Shown: positions 55,986-64,000 of the stretch, in pieces | How the letters are laid out: each line of letters begins with the position of its first letter | Numbering within the stretch: position 1 is the stretch's first letter | Origin: Pseudobdellovibrionaceae bacterium | Lineage (GTDB): Bacteria > Bdellovibrionota > Bdellovibrionia > Bdellovibrionales > Bdellovibrionaceae | NCBI GenBank assembly: GCA_022843825.1 | Contig: JALHMX010000002.1 | Location: 124,001-188,000, forward strand | DNA: 64,000 nt | Direction of reading: 5' to 3' | Made by a program: the position numbers and the translations under genes | The notes under the pieces: model-generated | What the model saw: the letters and a program-made list of their open reading frames with translations, nothing else | What the model was told of the DNA's origin: nothing | Databases searched by the model: none

Positions 55986-57071
55986 TCAACTGACGCTGTC
56001 TGAGGCTTCGACATGTCTTAAGTAGTCCACACAGGATTTATAATCTCCCTTAAATTGAATGGTCACTTGTCGACGCTCAAGACTGCCTAAATACATAGGA
56101 TCATAATAATAGACCAAAAGTTTTTCTATCCACTTTTTGTTGGAACTGAGATCTCCTGAACTTAAAAAATCTTCTTCTGAATTTTGTAAAAGCATGGTCA
56201 ACTCTTGCGTTCTTAATGCACCCAATTTTTTAGAAATGCCTTTAATCGCATTTTTGTAATAAGTATAAAGTTCTTTTTTCCCTAAAGATGAATTCAGTAT
56301 ATAATCTTGAAAAATATTATTGATTCGATTTTCTAGTGCTTCCTCGATCCATATCACCGGAGAGGCGCGCATTTTATTAAAAAAAACATCAGGGATAGCG
56401 CATCGGCCAATCATACGGCTTTCATCTTCAAGAAGTATCGGCAACTTTTGTTTTGTAGTCTCAGTCATTAACAACGATACTGATAGATAGTTTTCAAAAT
56501 TGATTTGCGAAGGTTGCTCTGTGGATATGCGGCCAAAAGCTGATCCCCGGTGTTGGGCCAGATATTCAAGATCAATGCATGAACAAAAACTTCTTGTATC
56601 ATTTAGAAATTGTGTTTTACCCGATCCGGTTTTTCCGGACACCATCAGAAACGGGTAGGACTCGGTAAATCTTTTGAGTTCATTTATTAAAAAATTGCGG
56701 GCGCTTTTGTAGCCCCCCTGAATCAGGGGTCTATCGATGCCAGCTTCCTTGATCCACTGTTGAGTGATCTGCGATCGTAGTCCGCCTCGAAAACAATAAA
56801 TCACTGAATTTGGGTTTTGTTCTATAAAATCTATCCAAGTTTGAACACGCTTTTCTTTTGTTTCTCCAGAAACTAATTGATGTCCTAATTCAATGGCGGC
56901 TTCGCGTCCTTGTAGTTTATATGTAGTCCCAACCAGGGCTCTTTCTTCATCGTTTAAAAGGGGAAAATTAATTGCCCCGGGCAAATGCCCTTGGTTAAAT
57001 TCAATCGGCGCGCGCACATCGATAAATGTGGTTTTATCTAAAAGTAAGTGGCGCAGTTGATCGCTATTCAA
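55986..57071 (-). CDS. mnmH: tRNA 2-selenouridine synthase
   Basis: Replaces sulphur of 2-thiouridine in the wobble position of Lys, Glu and Gln tRNAs with selenium, using selenophosphate. 361 aa. Rhodanese domain (residues 1-125) with the catalytic Cys93 in YCFRGGLRS; then a P-loop GKTGSGKT (about 146-153) domain, the normal two-domain layout of YbbB/MnmH. Overlaps selD by 8 bases; the two form a complete selenouridine pathway pair. Confidence 0.93.
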   Translation of the reverse strand: MNSDQLRHLLLDKTTFIDVRAPIEFNQGHLPGAINFPLLNDEERALVGTTYKLQGREAAIELGHQLVSGETKEKRVQTWIDFIEQNPNSVIYCFRGGLRSQITQQWIKEAGIDRPLIQGGYKSARNFLINELKRFTESYPFLMVSGKTGSGKTQFLNDTRSFCSCIDLEYLAQHRGSAFGRISTEQPSQINFENYLSVSLLMTETTKQKLPILLEDESRMIGRCAIPDVFFNKMRASPVIWIEEALENRINNIFQDYILNSSLGKKELYTYYKNAIKGISKKLGALRTQELTMLLQNSEEDFLSSGDLSSNKKWIEKLLVYYYDPMYLGSLERRQVTIQFKGDYKSCVDYLRHVEASDSVS

Positions 57072-58113
57072 AGATAACAGCCTTACTTTGTTGTGATTCG
57101 ACTTGGCCGATTAGGGATGTTGCAGGGAAAGCCTTTTTTAATGAGTTAAGAATGGAGGTGCTGAATTGTGGATCCACACATAGCAGTAGCCCTCCGCTGG
57201 TTTGCGGATCGTGAATCAGCAGGTTTTGCAATTTATCAAGCGCGGTCACATCTAAAAAATCTTTGGTGTAATCGGCATTACTACGATGGGCTTTAGTTAA
57301 AAATTCCTGTTCAAGGCAATTCAAAGCTTTAGAAAAAGTGGGTAAAGAGTTTCTGTTTATCTTTAAGCTCACTTCGCTGGCGCGCGCTAACTGCATCGCA
57401 TGCCCAGAAAATCCAAAACCAGTTATATCCGTCGCCGCATGAATTGCCGAAAGCTGCTCTGATGATAAATAATCAATAACGTTGTTAATTTGCGCCATAC
57501 TTAAGATGGCTTCCATAATTTCATTTTCACTTAAGGCTTGTCGCTTTAAGGCTGCAGTCATGGTGCCGGTACCCAATGGCTTAGTCAGGATAACATGATC
57601 GCCGGGCTTAGCCCCTGCATTGGTCCACATTTTTTTCGGATGAACATAACCAGTAACGGATAGACCAAATTTTAAGGTGTCGTCATCGATAGAATGCCCA
57701 CCCACAAAATTAGCTTTAGCTTCACTGACTTTATCACTGGCTCCCTGCATGACATCGACGATCACAGAATCGGGCATCGTGGCCAAAGGAAAAGCTAAAA
57801 TTCCCATGACTGTTTTTGGTCGGCCTCCCATGGCATAAACATCACTTAAGGCATTGGCTGCGGCCACCGCACCAAAAAGTTTGGGTGTGTCTAAAATAGG
57901 GGTAAAAAAATCCAACGTCTGCACTAAGGCGATATCCTCGGTGACTTGGTAAATGCCCGCATCATCGAAAAGTCGGCCATCTACAAGTAATTCTGGGTGA
58001 GCTTTGGGAAACTGAACTTGATTTAAAATTTTACGTAATTCAGTGGCGGCCACCTTCGCGGCGCATCCGCCTTTTTGCACAGTCTGAGTTAAAGGTAAAA
58101 AATCATTTTTCAT
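57064..58113 (-). CDS. selD: Selenide, water dikinase
   Basis: Makes selenophosphate from selenide and ATP. 349 aa. The active-site loop is QKGGCAAK with Cys17 and Lys20, the Cys form (not selenocysteine). LVQTLDFFTPI, GHSIDDDTLKFGLSVTGYV and the ATP-binding ITGFGFSGHAM are conserved. It is the first gene of selD-mnmH, so selenium is probably used for tRNA modification. selA/selB and tRNA-Sec are not in the window. Confidence 0.95.
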   Translation of the reverse strand: MKNDFLPLTQTVQKGGCAAKVAATELRKILNQVQFPKAHPELLVDGRLFDDAGIYQVTEDIALVQTLDFFTPILDTPKLFGAVAAANALSDVYAMGGRPKTVMGILAFPLATMPDSVIVDVMQGASDKVSEAKANFVGGHSIDDDTLKFGLSVTGYVHPKKMWTNAGAKPGDHVILTKPLGTGTMTAALKRQALSENEIMEAILSMAQINNVIDYLSSEQLSAIHAATDITGFGFSGHAMQLARASEVSLKINRNSLPTFSKALNCLEQEFLTKAHRSNADYTKDFLDVTALDKLQNLLIHDPQTSGGLLLCVDPQFSTSILNSLKKAFPATSLIGQVESQQSKAVIFE

Positions 58114-58222: not shown

Positions 58223-58708
58223 ATGAATAAAAAAGAGCTTATCCATCAGTTCATACTTCTTATAGAGGAAACATTGTCCTTAGCAATTGAGTCGCAAAAA
58301 AATACGGTGGATTACGTTATAGATGAAGATAATAAGCCTGAAAACCAGTATGATACCCGGGGGCTGGAAGCGTCCTATTTGGCGCGCGGGCAGGCGGAAC
58401 GCGTGGCTGAATTAAAAGAATGTCTTAACGATTTTAAAAATGCTGTAGTTAGAAATTATACTGAAGATACACCCCTGGGACCTACCGCGCTGGTGGAAGT
58501 AATGTCTTTAAATTCAGAAGAAACTAAAACTTTTTTCTTTATGCCTAAAGGAGGCGGATTAACTTTAAACTATGTTGAGAGGCAAATTCAAGTCGTAACC
58601 GCTTCAAGTCCTATCGGACAAGCGCTGGTTGGACAAAAAGTCGGTGAAATCATTCGGTATCGGGCGAGAGATAGAGATCATGAATATGAAATACAGGCTG
58701 TTTACTGA
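58223..58708 (+). CDS. GreA/GreB-type transcription elongation factor-like protein
   Basis: 161 aa. N-terminal helical region with a possible coiled coil (about 30-75), and a C-terminal GreA/GreB domain with VVTASSPIGQALVGQKVGEIIRY. Gre factors rescue backtracked RNA polymerase; acidic tip residues (DED in about 35) are a partial match. Could be a GreA paralog or a Rnk-like protein. The stop overlaps the next convergent gene by 7 bases. Confidence 0.85.
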   Translation: MNKKELIHQFILLIEETLSLAIESQKNTVDYVIDEDNKPENQYDTRGLEASYLARGQAERVAELKECLNDFKNAVVRNYTEDTPLGPTALVEVMSLNSEETKTFFFMPKGGGLTLNYVERQIQVVTASSPIGQALVGQKVGEIIRYRARDRDHEYEIQAVY

Positions 58709-60492
58709 AGTAAACGGGGACTAATAACAAAAGATTCGTAGGTCTGCGGATAAGTGACGGAGATCTGTTCTAACTGGCTGGTCAGCACAGAGAAGGAATT
58801 AAACTTCATTCCGTAACAATCCACAGAGTTTATTTTATTCGGTATTTTATAATTGAGTACGATATCCGTTATAGAGCCTATCAAAGTTTTTTGATAATTT
58901 TGAATAAGTAATTTATCCACATGCATTGGTCCACCGTAAGGTCCGCTTCCTAAAGTTTCGCCTTCTCGGACTAATATTAATACTTCGAAATCAGCTCTTA
59001 AAAGTTCATCTTGAGTTTGGACTTGTAGCTGAACTTGGAACTGATCACTTTCATTGGCAACATAGGAATTAATCAGTGGGTAATCACCTAAAGCACTAAG
59101 GGGTTGAAGATTTTTAAAGGTAACATCCATAGAAGTTTGTCCTGCTTGTGCATTCCCATTAATTTGAGACACCACAGGACGTGACGGATAGCTGAGATAA
59201 AATTTATCTTTAGAATATAAGGTGACATTATAAAGCTGTAAATTCAGCGTCACCACAGAGTGGGGAACTTGGTAGGAAACAGAAACTTTATGGCGGCTTT
59301 TATCGACTTTTATGACACTGCAACGGCTTGCAGAAATTGTTTTCACCGGAGATGCTCCGTTGACCCACGGCCAGTCTTCAGAAGTCAGCTGCGCCATACA
59401 TCCATCAATGGGTAATTGGTTGCTATCTTCAACTTCAAATTCATAGTTTAAGACCGTTCCAGGCTCGGCCGTCTTATGTGGTAGCGAAATAGGCTTTAAG
59501 GTAAAAATTAAACCTTCTGCCATCTTAATAAGGTCATCGTCTGTACTAAATCCAAGATGACTGACATTTATCTGAACAGTTGGTGTTAATTTATCCCAGT
59601 TAGTTGCGTTCATTTCTTGGGGATAAATAAATTGGACAACCGCAGTCAGAAGCATCTTCTTAGGATAAGTGTTTTTCAAGCCCGTCATCACTGATCCACA
59701 TTGATTATGCACTATAGCTGTTCCATTAAGAGTCATGGTTTTTTCTTTTAAACGAAACTGAGAAATGTGCCAGCGCGGTTTTTCAACCTTTTGCTGAATC
59801 ACCATATCCCAAGCATTATCACAAGGTAGGGTCACAACGCTTTGGGCAGGAACAGCATTGAACAGTCGATCATCTATTTCACTAGATATCGCGGACCAGT
59901 GCATAGGGCCTTCAGCATTAAAAACATTTAAAGAAACATTTTTTTGAGAAACCATTCCTTGGGCTGAGGAAAGGAATTTAGATTTAAAATAAGTGGCTAT
60001 GTAACTACCAATTTGATCAGGCCATCGTTCATTAGTATCCGTGATCCCCAGATGATGAACCAGTTCATGCACTAAAATACCGACATAAAATTCGTAATCA
60101 TAGGGCACGCCTTGCGATCGCTCTATACGATCAAGGTTAAAATAGATAATAGATCCAGGCGTCAATCCTGTCATGGCTACGCGATGGCTTTCTTCGAGAT
60201 CGGTGTTAAAATCAAATTCATTTTCGTGTTTAAAAATTAACTGACTTTGCCACGCCTTAACGTCGAAGTCTGATTCAGATGGAACCAGCTTTAAAAGTTG
60301 GCTGATAAGGGCCTGATACTTAGGGTTTCCGCAGTTATCTTTATCTTGCGAGCAAGAAAACAAAACTGTCGATAGGTTTTGCCACACCCAACGGATGCGT
60401 TTTTCTGACAGATTCTTGCCGGCAATTTCAGTGGTTTCCGCAGAAGCAGACAATGAGACTAGAAAAAGGAATATAAAAGCAAAGTATTTCAA
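58702..60492 (-). CDS. Exported HExxH-type protein, probable metalloprotease, of the TIGR02147 locus
   Basis: 596 aa. Signal peptide (MKYFAFIFLFLVSLSASA). A zinc-protease-like motif HELVH (residues 142-146) lies in YVGILVHELVHHLGITDTNERWPDQIGSYIATYFKSK-type sequence. The later Asp and Glu residues could supply a third ligand, though none is certain. After about residue 200 the protein is beta-rich with internal Cys (DGCM, SRCS, YGCM region). The N-terminal 170 residues align with the next upstream gene, which has lost these His/Glu residues. Third gene of the operon, overlapped by 4 bases. Substrate unknown. Confidence 0.72.
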   Translation of the reverse strand: MKYFAFIFLFLVSLSASAETTEIAGKNLSEKRIRWVWQNLSTVLFSCSQDKDNCGNPKYQALISQLLKLVPSESDFDVKAWQSQLIFKHENEFDFNTDLEESHRVAMTGLTPGSIIYFNLDRIERSQGVPYDYEFYVGILVHELVHHLGITDTNERWPDQIGSYIATYFKSKFLSSAQGMVSQKNVSLNVFNAEGPMHWSAISSEIDDRLFNAVPAQSVVTLPCDNAWDMVIQQKVEKPRWHISQFRLKEKTMTLNGTAIVHNQCGSVMTGLKNTYPKKMLLTAVVQFIYPQEMNATNWDKLTPTVQINVSHLGFSTDDDLIKMAEGLIFTLKPISLPHKTAEPGTVLNYEFEVEDSNQLPIDGCMAQLTSEDWPWVNGASPVKTISASRCSVIKVDKSRHKVSVSYQVPHSVVTLNLQLYNVTLYSKDKFYLSYPSRPVVSQINGNAQAGQTSMDVTFKNLQPLSALGDYPLINSYVANESDQFQVQLQVQTQDELLRADFEVLILVREGETLGSGPYGGPMHVDKLLIQNYQKTLIGSITDIVLNYKIPNKINSVDCYGMKFNSFSVLTSQLEQISVTYPQTYESFVISPRLLQ

Positions 60493-61328
60493 AACAGCCC
60501 TCGGCTTTGCATCGAAACAAAATTAAATTGTGTTTTATCAATAACAAACTGAGCAGAGACTTCTCTGAGGTAATAGTCAAAGCCACAGGTTATTTTAATG
60601 TAAAAATTCATTTGAATTCGAACTTCATCCTTTGCTGTCGCGCTTTCGGAGGTTGCAAAAGAGGGTTCTAATATTTTCAAGGCCTTAAGATTTTGCATGT
60701 CACAGTGAGACTCCATTAAAACGCCTTCAGTTAAATCGATAAAAGAAAAATCTTTAGAGGTCAGAATGAGTTGATCTGTGTTATCTGCAGATGACCAGGC
60801 ATAACTTCTTAAGATCTCTTTGGATTTAAAATAGGCCGTGCTGGATGAAACAAACTTATCAGTAGCTGTTTCAACTCTGCGAATTAAGCTGTCTAAATGC
60901 GTTTTAGTCGTACTATCGGTTATGTCAGTTATGTGGCTAGCCAGTTGACGAACGATAAGTCCGTAGGCCTCGCTTAAAGTGAGGTCGCGCTTTCGCTGCT
61001 CAGACAACATAGAAAGCATTTTGCTGTTTACATAAATGATACTACCAATTTTTCCCTCAGAAAAAAGAAGTGACGTATACTGTTCATTAAAAACCAGGCC
61101 ACCTTTTTCAGAAGGCACCGCCATCAATAAATTGAGCAAAATTTCAGTTTCACTAGGCGCTATAGTTTTATCATGTGTTTTTAGATGCAAAAGCCATTCG
61201 CCGTAAGATTGATAAGCAATCTGCAAATTGTATTCTGAAAATCCACCGCCATTACCAACGTGAATACCCTTGACTTGTCCTTGCGATAAAGTGGTGAATA
61301 GGATGATTAATGCGAATATATATCTCAT
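60489..61328 (-). CDS. Exported paralog of the HExxH protein with the zinc motif lost
   Basis: 279 aa. Signal peptide (about 19 residues). The region 60-170 matches residues 60-172 of the downstream 596-aa protein: LLMAVPSEK/LLKLVPSES, GSIIYVN/GSIIYFN, YGLIVRQLASH/YVGILVHELVHH and AYFKSK/TYFKSK. At the HExxH position it has RQLAS (residues 127-131), so all three His/Glu are replaced. It is probably a pseudoenzyme, a binding partner or an inhibitor-like subunit. It overlaps both neighbours by 4 bases. Confidence 0.72.
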   Translation of the reverse strand: MRYIFALIILFTTLSQGQVKGIHVGNGGGFSEYNLQIAYQSYGEWLLHLKTHDKTIAPSETEILLNLLMAVPSEKGGLVFNEQYTSLLFSEGKIGSIIYVNSKMLSMLSEQRKRDLTLSEAYGLIVRQLASHITDITDSTTKTHLDSLIRRVETATDKFVSSSTAYFKSKEILRSYAWSSADNTDQLILTSKDFSFIDLTEGVLMESHCDMQNLKALKILEPSFATSESATAKDEVRIQMNFYIKITCGFDYYLREVSAQFVIDKTQFNFVSMQSRGLF

Positions 61329-62155
61329 GTTAGTTCCTCGTCTTGTAGCAGATTAAAAAATTGCAATGTTAAGCAATATAATTTTTCTTTTTTTATTTTA
61401 GGTGAACGACTTGCTGAATTTAAATTTTTATCTAAATAACGAAGAGCCAACGTTTTAATGTCCGCCATGATATTTTCCACCTCTGAGGAGGGAAGAGCCA
61501 CTATCGTCGATGAAGCAAAGCGTTTATTCATGGGTTGCTCATCCAAAGCCGCTTTTGCTTTGGTGATCATTTGCTTGTGAAACTGTCGAATGGCCAGCGA
61601 TGAAACGCCATCGCCCATACGGTGTGATTGATTGCTTTCAAAGATACCATCAGAGTTCTTTTTTATCAGTTCAAGTTTAACTAAGCGTTGGATGGCTTTG
61701 TTCATTTCAGAGGGTTTTATACCCAGAGCCTTAGCCGCTTTGGTGACAGAGCTGTATTTGGTGGCATTGATACTCAGAAGCTCTATGTAGGCTAAATGGT
61801 ACCAGTTGGAAACAATTTTAAACTGGTCCAGCGAAATCGAATGCATCTGTGCCGATAGACGGGATTCGATTCGAACTTTAAGTTCTTGTTTCGTTTCCTG
61901 GTCCTTACATCGTTCAAGTTGAATAAGGTCTATCCAGTGATTTCTTTGTTCTAAATTTAATCCTATAGCTTTGCTTAGTGAAACAATACGAGCATCTGAA
62001 ATTTTGAGTCGACCACGCAAGTAATCATTTAAGGTCGATACACTTAAAGACAAATCCCGGGCAAAGGCCCTTTGAGAATAAGCTTTGCGCCGAGCCATAC
62101 GATTTTGTAACTCATTGCTGAGATAATCTGTATGTTTACTTACAAATAAATCCAT
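61325..62155 (-). CDS. TIGR02147-family regulator (DUF4423)
   Basis: 276 aa. An N-terminal HTH lies near residues 28-55 (RAFARDLSLSVSTLNDYLRG), similar to a Cro/C1-like HTH, with the C-terminal domain of TIGR02147. The family is known in Fibrobacter and Bdellovibrio; targets are unknown. It is the first gene of an operon with two exported proteins, and repeated boxes lie between it and the divergent operon, giving a likely binding region. Confidence 0.85.
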   Translation of the reverse strand: MDLFVSKHTDYLSNELQNRMARRKAYSQRAFARDLSLSVSTLNDYLRGRLKISDARIVSLSKAIGLNLEQRNHWIDLIQLERCKDQETKQELKVRIESRLSAQMHSISLDQFKIVSNWYHLAYIELLSINATKYSSVTKAAKALGIKPSEMNKAIQRLVKLELIKKNSDGIFESNQSHRMGDGVSSLAIRQFHKQMITKAKAALDEQPMNKRFASSTIVALPSSEVENIMADIKTLALRYLDKNLNSASRSPKIKKEKLYCLTLQFFNLLQDEELT

Positions 62156-62230
62156 AGCACCGTTTTACTTCGGCTGACGTCATAGTCAATGCCTTTATAA
62201 TCCCGAGTAAGACTTTGTAAAATGTCTACA

Positions 62231-62250
62231 CCGAACACTTCCGAACACTT
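62231..62250. promoter_or_regulatory. Tandem box of two CCGAACACTT units
   Basis: CCGAACACTT occurs twice in perfect tandem (62231-62240, 62241-62250). A related copy (62318-62337) lies 87 bases right, giving two 20-base boxes in the gap between the TIGR02147 operon and the divergent lipoprotein operon. Probable operator, possibly for the TIGR02147 protein itself; binding is inferred. Confidence 0.55.
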
Positions 62251-62317
62251 TTTATAAGGTCTAAAAACGATTTAAACACCAGTGGCTGCGAAGATGTTCT
62301 GCATTTTTTTAATTTTA

Positions 62318-62337
62318 CCGAACACTTCCGGACAGAC
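62318..62337. promoter_or_regulatory. Second box, one exact and one varied unit
   Basis: CCGAACACTT (62318-62327) followed by CCGGACAGAC, which matches the unit at 6 of its first 7 positions. The second unit forms a dyad with TCCGG at 62340-62344 (CCGGA...TCCGG). It lies 71 bases before the lipoprotein ATG. Confidence 0.5.
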
Positions 62338-62407
62338 ATTCCGGCGACGGGCTATCCAAACAAACTTTTTTAAAATACGAATACTAAAAAACAACAAAAG
62401 GAGTTTT

Positions 62408-62929
62408 ATGAAAAAAATAAATTTACTGTGCATGCCACTGGCGTTTTTTATTTTCGCTGGCTGTGATGTGAAAAGCGAAAATGCAGAAGCCCCCGTTGCG
62501 GCGAAGCAGATCATCAACCCGAATGATCAGTATTGGTCAATTGAATCTAAAAGCTGCGATGGTGTGCCCTTAACAATGTTAGGCTCGGAACGCATCAGGC
62601 TTTCAGATGGAGCATTTATCCATGGCTATGTAACAAAAGTCACGCTGACGGACATTTGTATAGATACGGACGCCTACTACAGAGTTATTGAAAAGTATGA
62701 TGCTAACACCGAGATTTACAATGAAACGTCCAGTCTTATGAGCGAAAAGAAAAGAATCATTTGCTACAATCAAAATACCGGAGACAAGCTTTCAGAACAA
62801 ACAGTAGACGTTCCTTTTCAAACCCACAAGCTACTGGTTAACGTCAATCAAGATGCAGGCACGATCAGCCTTTATAACACCAGTCAATGTAATGGATTAC
62901 TCACTTACTCAGTTAAACTTTCACCATAA
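62408..62929 (+). CDS. Lipoprotein divergent from the TIGR02147 operon
   Basis: 173 aa from ATG 62408 (AAAAGGAG upstream). Lipobox FAGC after a hydrophobic segment (Cys about 19). The mature domain is beta-rich with five further Cys (two of them in VKSENA region-free parts: SKSCDG, TDICID, RIICYN, SQCNG). No family identified. First of a three-gene envelope group; probably controlled with the repeated boxes. Confidence 0.75.
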   Translation: MKKINLLCMPLAFFIFAGCDVKSENAEAPVAAKQIINPNDQYWSIESKSCDGVPLTMLGSERIRLSDGAFIHGYVTKVTLTDICIDTDAYYRVIEKYDANTEIYNETSSLMSEKKRIICYNQNTGDKLSEQTVDVPFQTHKLLVNVNQDAGTISLYNTSQCNGLLTYSVKLSP

Positions 62930-62940
62930 AGGATATGAAT

Positions 62941-63561
62941 ATGAAAAAAGTAAAAAACATAACTCTAGCAATTTTAATAGCTCAGTTGATTGGATTCTCT
63001 GCGTTGGCATCCGATAAAGCTTCGACGCAAAGTAACTACGCTGTTTCGCCAATCGTTGGAACAACGGCGTATGCTCTTGAAAACACGTCTCTTCAAAACA
63101 CTTCTAAAGGGGGTATTACTTTCGGTATAGCCCTTCAAAAGGTGATCGATAACTACTGGGAACTGGAAGGCGGCATCAATTACTTTGAGACCTTTTCACA
63201 ACTAACAGGAATAGTGCCGACATCAATAGAAGTTAAAAATTTAGGAATTCTGCTTAAATCTAAGTACTACTTCAACAAACAAGAAAATGAAGTCTATAAC
63301 TTTTATTTTACCGGCGCCTTAACGCCAAGTTTTGTTTTATCTTCTAAGGCAAAAAATGATATTGCGGATACCGATCTTATGTCTGACACCAATAAATTAG
63401 GTCTATTTGCTAATCTGGGTGTGGGGACTGATATTAATTTTGATGGAGGAAAAGTCAATGTCGATTTGACTTACAGTCGCGCTTTAAATCAATTTAACCA
63501 GAATATTGATGGTGCTTTTGCCGGTTGGCAACTTGCAGCCGGATATTCAATCCAACTTTAA
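62941..63561 (+). CDS. Small outer-membrane beta-barrel protein
   Basis: 206 aa from ATG 62941, which has AAAGGA at a better distance than the ATG at 62935. Signal peptide (cut after ALAS). Alternating beta strands and a C-terminal QLAAGYSIQL suggest an OmpW/OmpA-like barrel. Encoded between two lipoproteins. Function not known. Confidence 0.75.
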   Translation: MKKVKNITLAILIAQLIGFSALASDKASTQSNYAVSPIVGTTAYALENTSLQNTSKGGITFGIALQKVIDNYWELEGGINYFETFSQLTGIVPTSIEVKNLGILLKSKYYFNKQENEVYNFYFTGALTPSFVLSSKAKNDIADTDLMSDTNKLGLFANLGVGTDINFDGGKVNVDLTYSRALNQFNQNIDGAFAGWQLAAGYSIQL

Positions 63562-63570
63562 GGGGAACAA

Positions 63571-64000
63571 ATGAAAACAAAATTATTATTACTCATGATG
63601 ACCTCAACTTTTTTATTAAGCTGTGCAGGCTCGCGTAAAGTAGAAGTCGCAGAAATTAAAACAGTGCGCAGCTTTGCTCTAACTAATTTTAGTGCCATGT
63701 TGCCGTCTTCGGCTTTAAGCAGCAATGCTGCGGTAAAAAACTCAGAAGATATAGATCAGATGTACGAAGCGCTAAATCAAAAGCTGTCTAGTTTTTTAAA
63801 AGCCAAATCGATAAAAAGATCAGCCTTGGTGGCTAACGAACACTATGTGAAAGCTTATGATGGAACCATGAAGGGATTTCAGAATAAAAATATTGATATG
63901 TCTTCTATGCGATATGAAGTTGTGCAAATCATGGATAGCGAAAGTATGCGCCTATTGGATACCACAGGACGTGATCAGTTGATGAAGGCACTTAATGTTG
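63571..64000 (+). CDS. Lipoprotein, 3' end outside the window
   Basis: At least 143 residues, open at the right edge. AAGGGG lies shortly before the ATG at 63571. A lipobox LLSC (Cys about residue 18) follows a hydrophobic segment. The visible sequence is helical and Lys/Ser-rich with no family match. Third gene of the operon divergent from TIGR02147. Confidence 0.75.
   Translation, partial: MKTKLLLLMMTSTFLLSCAGSRKVEVAEIKTVRSFALTNFSAMLPSSALSSNAAVKNSEDIDQMYEALNQKLSSFLKAKSIKRSALVANEHYVKAYDGTMKGFQNKNIDMSSMRYEVVQIMDSESMRLLDTTGRDQLMKALNV

Follow-up and report, generated by a model that had tools for sequence, protein, structure and literature searches.

A TIGR02147-type regulator, an exported HExxH protein with its predicted inactive homologue and a divergent envelope operon around tandem-repeat boxes in a Pseudobdellovibrionaceae bacterium

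Gene content of the locus

The window, i.e., the whole stretch of 64,000 nucleotides analysed here, ends with two divergent gene groups separated by an intergenic region with repeated boxes. The following features were identified:

58702-60492, minus strand: ORF of the HExxH protein, 596 aa, TTG start; exported, zincin-like, with a beta-rich C-terminal half; NGGG motif lost
60489-61328, minus strand: NGGG-motif protein ('RQLAS' protein), 279 aa; exported; VGNGGGFSE follows the signal peptide
61325-62155, minus strand: TIGR02147/DUF4423 regulator, 276 aa; HigA-like helix-turn-helix (HTH) and winged HTH domains
62231-62250, minus strand: box 1, reading AAGTGTTCGGAAGTGTTCGG in minus-strand orientation; direct tandem repeat with a 10-bp period, some 75-95 bp ahead of the ATG of the regulator
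62318-62334, minus strand: box 2, reading TGTCCGGAAGTGTTCGG in minus-strand orientation; some 75-90 bp ahead of the ATG of lipoprotein 1
62408-62929, plus strand: lipoprotein 1, 173 aa, FAGC lipobox, ATG start
62935-63561, plus strand: outer-membrane beta-barrel protein (OMP); member of PF13568 (30.9 bits, cut-off 27)
63571-64000, plus strand: lipoprotein 2, 232 aa, running beyond the window end

The sequence-only reading of this DNA had described a minus-strand operon of a TIGR02147 regulator, an RQLAS protein and an HExxH protein with four-base overlaps, and the ORF coordinates confirm it: the HExxH and NGGG ORFs share TTGA (60489-60492), and the NGGG ORF and the regulator share ATGA (61325-61328). 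Its divergent operon of a lipoprotein, an outer-membrane barrel and another lipoprotein is likewise borne out by the ORFs and, for the barrel, by the PF13568 match. A longer reading of lipoprotein 1 from a GTG at 62282 is unlikely; a lipoprotein gene occupies the same place in a related locus (L091). Beyond the minus-strand operon, selD and mnmH (2-selenouridine tRNA synthase; 55986-58113 of the window) overlap in an operon-like manner, the KGGC motif of SelD having Cys, and a GreA-like protein (58223-58708) scores 28.9 bits against the GreA profile, far below its cut-off of 139.

The regulator and its family

The regulator belongs to TIGR02147 (101.9 bits, cut-off 50, covering positions 12-270 of the 272 of the profile) and to PF14394 (DUF4423; 94.1 bits, cut-off 30). 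Its AlphaFold model (pLDDT 82) comprises a HigA-like HTH domain, a CadC/CzrA/MarR-like winged HTH domain and helices including a short helical tail, and consists of DNA-binding domains and helices only. Pheromone regulators of the RRNPP/Rgg type carry a C-terminal TPR peptide-binding domain and are accompanied by a short propeptide gene. This assignment was rejected for the present locus: the regulator is modelled as an HTH and a winged HTH with a short helical tail, the proteins coupled to it have ordinary lengths and no short propeptide was found.

The genome of the window has four TIGR02147 matches, and a single genome of this group of bacteria can contain as many as about 35 members of the family. 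A second member (L026:15324-16184) lies 5 kb past the window's regulator near diaminopimelate-type genes, where it diverges from a small lipoprotein and stands without a coupled exported gene. Full-text searches of the open-access literature, in which absence is no proof, returned no paper on TIGR02147 and a single paper mentioning DUF4423, which lists Bd3700, a DUF4423 protein of Bdellovibrio bacteriovorus, among the proteins upregulated in growth inside prey (PMC12546842). No operator, partner or target of any TIGR02147/DUF4423 member was found in the open-access literature searched.

The exported HExxH protein and its homologue

Neither of the two exported proteins nor their relatives matched any Pfam or NCBIfam family, known peptidase families included, above cut-off. 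In the alignment of 18 homologues of the HExxH protein, C47, C54, F87, T108, N119, H142, E143, H146 and D159 are invariant, so that the HExxH residues H142, E143 and H146 are conserved throughout, as expected of a zincin. This pattern suggests a metalloprotease-like protein, a putative protease; D159 may, at a guess, provide the third metal ligand, other residues being found there in some relatives. The whole-chain model has a pLDDT of 60 and its fold-search lists were filled by the beta-rich domain, while a PDB-sequence profile search with the HExxH alignment gave chance-level matches only.

In most relatives of the HExxH protein, one chain of about 300-370 aa combines an N-terminal V.NGGG..EKN motif with HELGHH. 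In the window and at three related loci (L029, L030 and L031), two genes occur instead of one: one with HExxH and without NGGG, the other with the N-terminal glycine motif. The NGGG protein aligns over its full length with the single-gene HExxH family (BLAST E 2e-10 against a member; E 1.1e-12 against the family profile) and has RQLASH aligned with the HELGHH of the family, i.e., the catalytic motif has lost all three of its residues. The earlier suggestion of an inactive paralogue thus holds for the 279-aa protein: paralogy of the two exported proteins of the window is clear through intermediates, and the NGGG protein is, as judged from this alignment, an inactive homologue that retains homology over the catalytic domain with a destroyed metal site. 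Duplication followed by complementary loss of HExxH and of NGGG appears to have given rise to the two genes. The gene order and the complementary motifs suggest that their products work as a pair.

Gene order in related genomes

Of the 60 genomes searched, 15, including that of the window, encode a relative of the HExxH protein. Almost every one of these relatives is immediately preceded by a TIGR02147 gene, in many cases with an overlap of four bases. When a species-representative collection was scanned with the HExxH profile alone, a TIGR02147 gene lay directly upstream in 17 of 18 loci, some of which are the same records as in the 60-genome set; the profile was built from a closer subset of the alignment, the full 18-sequence alignment being too diverse. 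In a FastTree phylogeny of 99 regulators, the window's regulator falls into a clade of ten rows with an SH-like (local) support of 97, within which the gene order is kept across genera. An NGGG..E-type partner lies directly downstream in nine of the ten, and in the tenth (L045) a small gene separates the regulator from the NGGG gene. A large relative of the HExxH protein is encoded nearby in nine of the ten as well; in two of these (L141 and L143) it lacks the HExxH motif.

These neighbourhoods bear on the possibility of a toxin-antitoxin-like or otherwise selfish module, which is suggested by the close structural match between HigA and the HTH of the regulator. The coupled partners, however, carry signal peptides and no toxin family was matched, unlike in a HigBA-type pair, and the gene order of the clade is kept across genera; we consider such a module very improbable.

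On the plus-strand side, lipoprotein 2 occurs in 8 of the 141 genomes of the order, counting its own. At three loci (L029, L030 and L091) a relative of it is transcribed divergently from a TIGR02147 gene, and the NGGG and HExxH genes lie across the divide, so that the search of TIGR02147 neighbourhoods proposed with the sequence-only reading did recover the same divergent pair. At five other loci (L140, L045, L149, L031 and L159) the divergent gene encodes a different lipoprotein (type B; CQTVPYQ..AR.VKRKP), among them L140, whose regulator is 53% identical to that of the window. The OMP of the window is 32% identical (E 2e-30) to the OMP beside a type-B lipoprotein in L178, and both kinds of envelope operon therefore have an OMP in common. 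The regulator is not always present where the envelope operon is found. An obligate partnership of lipoprotein 2 with TIGR02147 was rejected, as several of its relatives lack an adjacent TIGR02147 gene; a PDB-sequence profile search with lipoprotein 2 gave chance-level matches only.

Tandem-repeat boxes

The 10-mer CCGAACACTT occurs at 62231, 62241 and 62318, so that the 10-bp tandem repeat is perfect in box 1 and imperfect in box 2 (CCGAACACTTCCGGACA, 62318-62334). Of the two 20-base boxes announced by the sequence-only reading, both are present, but the second is imperfect and the recognition unit is better described as a tandem 7-mer, TGTTCGG-N3-TGTTCGG, a direct repeat with a 10-bp period. 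Single copies of CCGAACACTT with one mismatch are not rare in the window, whereas the tandem CCGAACACTTCCGNACA with up to two mismatches is confined to the two boxes in the whole 2.4-Mb genome, as is TGTTCGG-N3-TGTTCGG with up to one mismatch. Across regulators, the distance from box to start codon is mostly 60-110 bp, which fits repression and activation alike.

The pattern derived from the window only, at a threshold of at least 12 of 14 positions, was found upstream of 12 of 102 regulators, as compared with 2 of 271 control stretches and none of 102 shuffles; with the window itself, a duplicate and a close pair counted among them, these 12 correspond to about nine independent loci. Among 23 loci, all chosen around regulators, every one of the 12 matches outside the window that reach this threshold sits at a promoter, belonging either to a TIGR02147 operon or to a nearby gene for an exported protein. 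One of them precedes a lipoprotein-regulator operon (L143). At L146, one box is found at each of two divergent starts, as in the window, and at L147 one box (L147:9634-9650, G072:C127) precedes a gene for a 1549-aa exported protein that adjoins a boxed TIGR02147 operon, the promoter of the regulator itself having three half-sites in a row.

Direct repetition was also recovered without any motif assumption: a lag of 10 was the strongest (18 of 77, 4.9 expected) and a lag of 6 was weaker (11, 4.4 expected). When variant half-sites were allowed, 14 regulators scored at least 12 and no shuffle did so, and the best sites were perfect pairs of the same variant (TGTCCGG, TGTACGG, TGTTCCG or TGTTCGA, each twice). 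Both halves thus change in concert, the constraint expected from two copies of one DNA-binding domain. TGTCCGG is the variant at L140, TGTACGG that at L091 and TGTTCCG that at L147. In the presumed recognition helix (SRxSE), L147 and L031/L020, which share TGTTCCG, both carry Arg at a position taken by T, S, A or N in the regulators with CGG-type boxes. The boxes are very probably a binding site of the TIGR02147 regulator. The sequence-only reading had named a lack of conservation of boxes or gene order in related genomes as evidence against it; both proved to be conserved, the boxes recurring upstream of the closest regulators with co-varying halves.

Conservation has its bounds. L029 and L030 keep the gene order and have no box at 12 of 14, L134 is a member of the regulator clade without a box, and most TIGR02147 genes outside the clade have no such box, so that a single box for all TIGR02147 genes is unsupported. 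In three single-gene loci (L012, L013 and L017), a TGTTCCG-rich element is conserved some 48 bp ahead of the regulator; it has only one clear half-site and may be a related operator.

Two other explanations of the boxes have to be weighed. A coincidence of gene neighbourhood and boxes might be invoked, given that the single 10-mer with one mismatch is not rare in the window, but it hardly deserves credence in the face of conservation across genera and families and of half-sites that co-vary. Alternatively, the boxes could be genuine sites of a different DNA-binding protein, for instance LexA or some other global regulator, with the TIGR02147 gene as just one of its targets. The box at L184 (13 of 14; L184:6997-7013, G029:C74) would suit such a protein, as it precedes an operon of an OMP and a type-B lipoprotein and the 9 kb examined contain no TIGR02147 gene, though action of a regulator in trans is possible there. 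The LexA box is palindromic; the boxes described here are direct and not inverted repeats, which speaks against LexA. Moreover, genome-wide matches with up to one mismatch are restricted to the regulator locus in three genomes (G000, G010 and G036; not so in G031), and the box differs from locus to locus even within one genus (L140, L045 and the window), as would be expected for a dedicated regulator. We regard control by another protein as unlikely and favour the TIGR02147 protein as the one that would bind the boxes.

Proposed working of the locus

The most probable interpretation, held with good though not full confidence, is that of a self-contained local regulatory locus, in which the TIGR02147 protein would bind the boxes and jointly set the expression of the exported-protease operon and the divergent envelope operon. 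With its HTH and winged HTH domains, it would recognise the tandem TGTTCGG-N3-TGTTCGG boxes, one placed ahead of its own operon and the other ahead of the divergent lipoprotein-OMP-lipoprotein operon. As a box stands in front of each operon, both sets of exported proteins would be switched together and the regulator would set its own level. In the periplasm or on the cell surface, the metalloprotease-like HExxH protein may cooperate with its inactive homologue. The original proposal, in which a single TIGR02147 regulator controls two divergent sets of exported proteins, is thus consistent with the conserved gene order and the conserved, co-varying boxes, at the level of comparative genomics.

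Exported partners are a wider feature of the family. Of about 100 TIGR02147 genes, 70 have a close downstream ORF, with a signal peptide in 63 and a glycine-rich NGG-like motif in 45 of these 70; the corresponding figures for ordinary close gene pairs in the same DNA are 132 and 11 of 257, all assignments being made by crude pattern and hydropathy tests on a non-random sample of TIGR02147 genes. A separate set (L049, L050, L051, L053, L055 and L057) is coupled to lipoproteins in which [TS]GNP just after the lipobox replaces the NGG motif, and yet another set, itself conserved, stands without a partner.

Many paralogous TIGR02147 genes remain paired with an exported protein, often one with an NGG motif; this and the four-base overlaps might also indicate a signalling system, in which the NGGG/HExxH pair is a sensing arm that detects or processes an outside signal and relays its state to the regulator. 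Nevertheless, no obvious relay protein is encoded in the locus and the regulator, as modelled, would have DNA-binding domains and helices only; we find a sensing role rather unlikely and retain joint regulation of two exported sets as the preferred reading.

More speculatively, and with somewhat more doubt than conviction, one may envisage in the Bdellovibrionales a large unrecognised family of modules, each a TIGR02147 regulator translationally coupled to an exported partner with an N-terminal glycine/asparagine motif (NGG, or TGNP in lipoproteins) and provided with its own tandem-repeat operator. Many surface- or prey-acting protein sets per genome could then be switched independently, and the split into active and inactive enzyme would be a trait of the window's branch. 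A specific candidate operator with natural co-varying variants and conserved exported targets makes the TIGR02147 family directly testable, and the locus offers a route to reading out many uncharacterised exported proteins of predatory bacteria.

Comparison with known systems

By curated cut-offs, the regulator belongs to the same family as Bd3700 and the other TIGR02147/DUF4423 proteins, from which the window's locus differs in having a predicted operator and predicted targets. Its two DNA-binding domains are predicted to fold like the HTH of the HigA antitoxin and the winged HTH of CzrA, CadC and MarR, but unlike those proteins it joins both domain types in one chain, and its partner gene, unlike that of HigA, is not a known toxin. 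The exported protein resembles zincin metallopeptidases in its HExxH on a predicted helix, invariant in its family, and differs from them in matching no known peptidase family above cut-off. Finally, the arrangement recalls divergent autoregulated loci of the LysR and MarR types, in which a regulator and its target operon diverge across shared operator sites; in contrast to these, the predicted operator of the window is a 10-bp tandem direct repeat, and the regulator is also coupled to an exported pair of its own.
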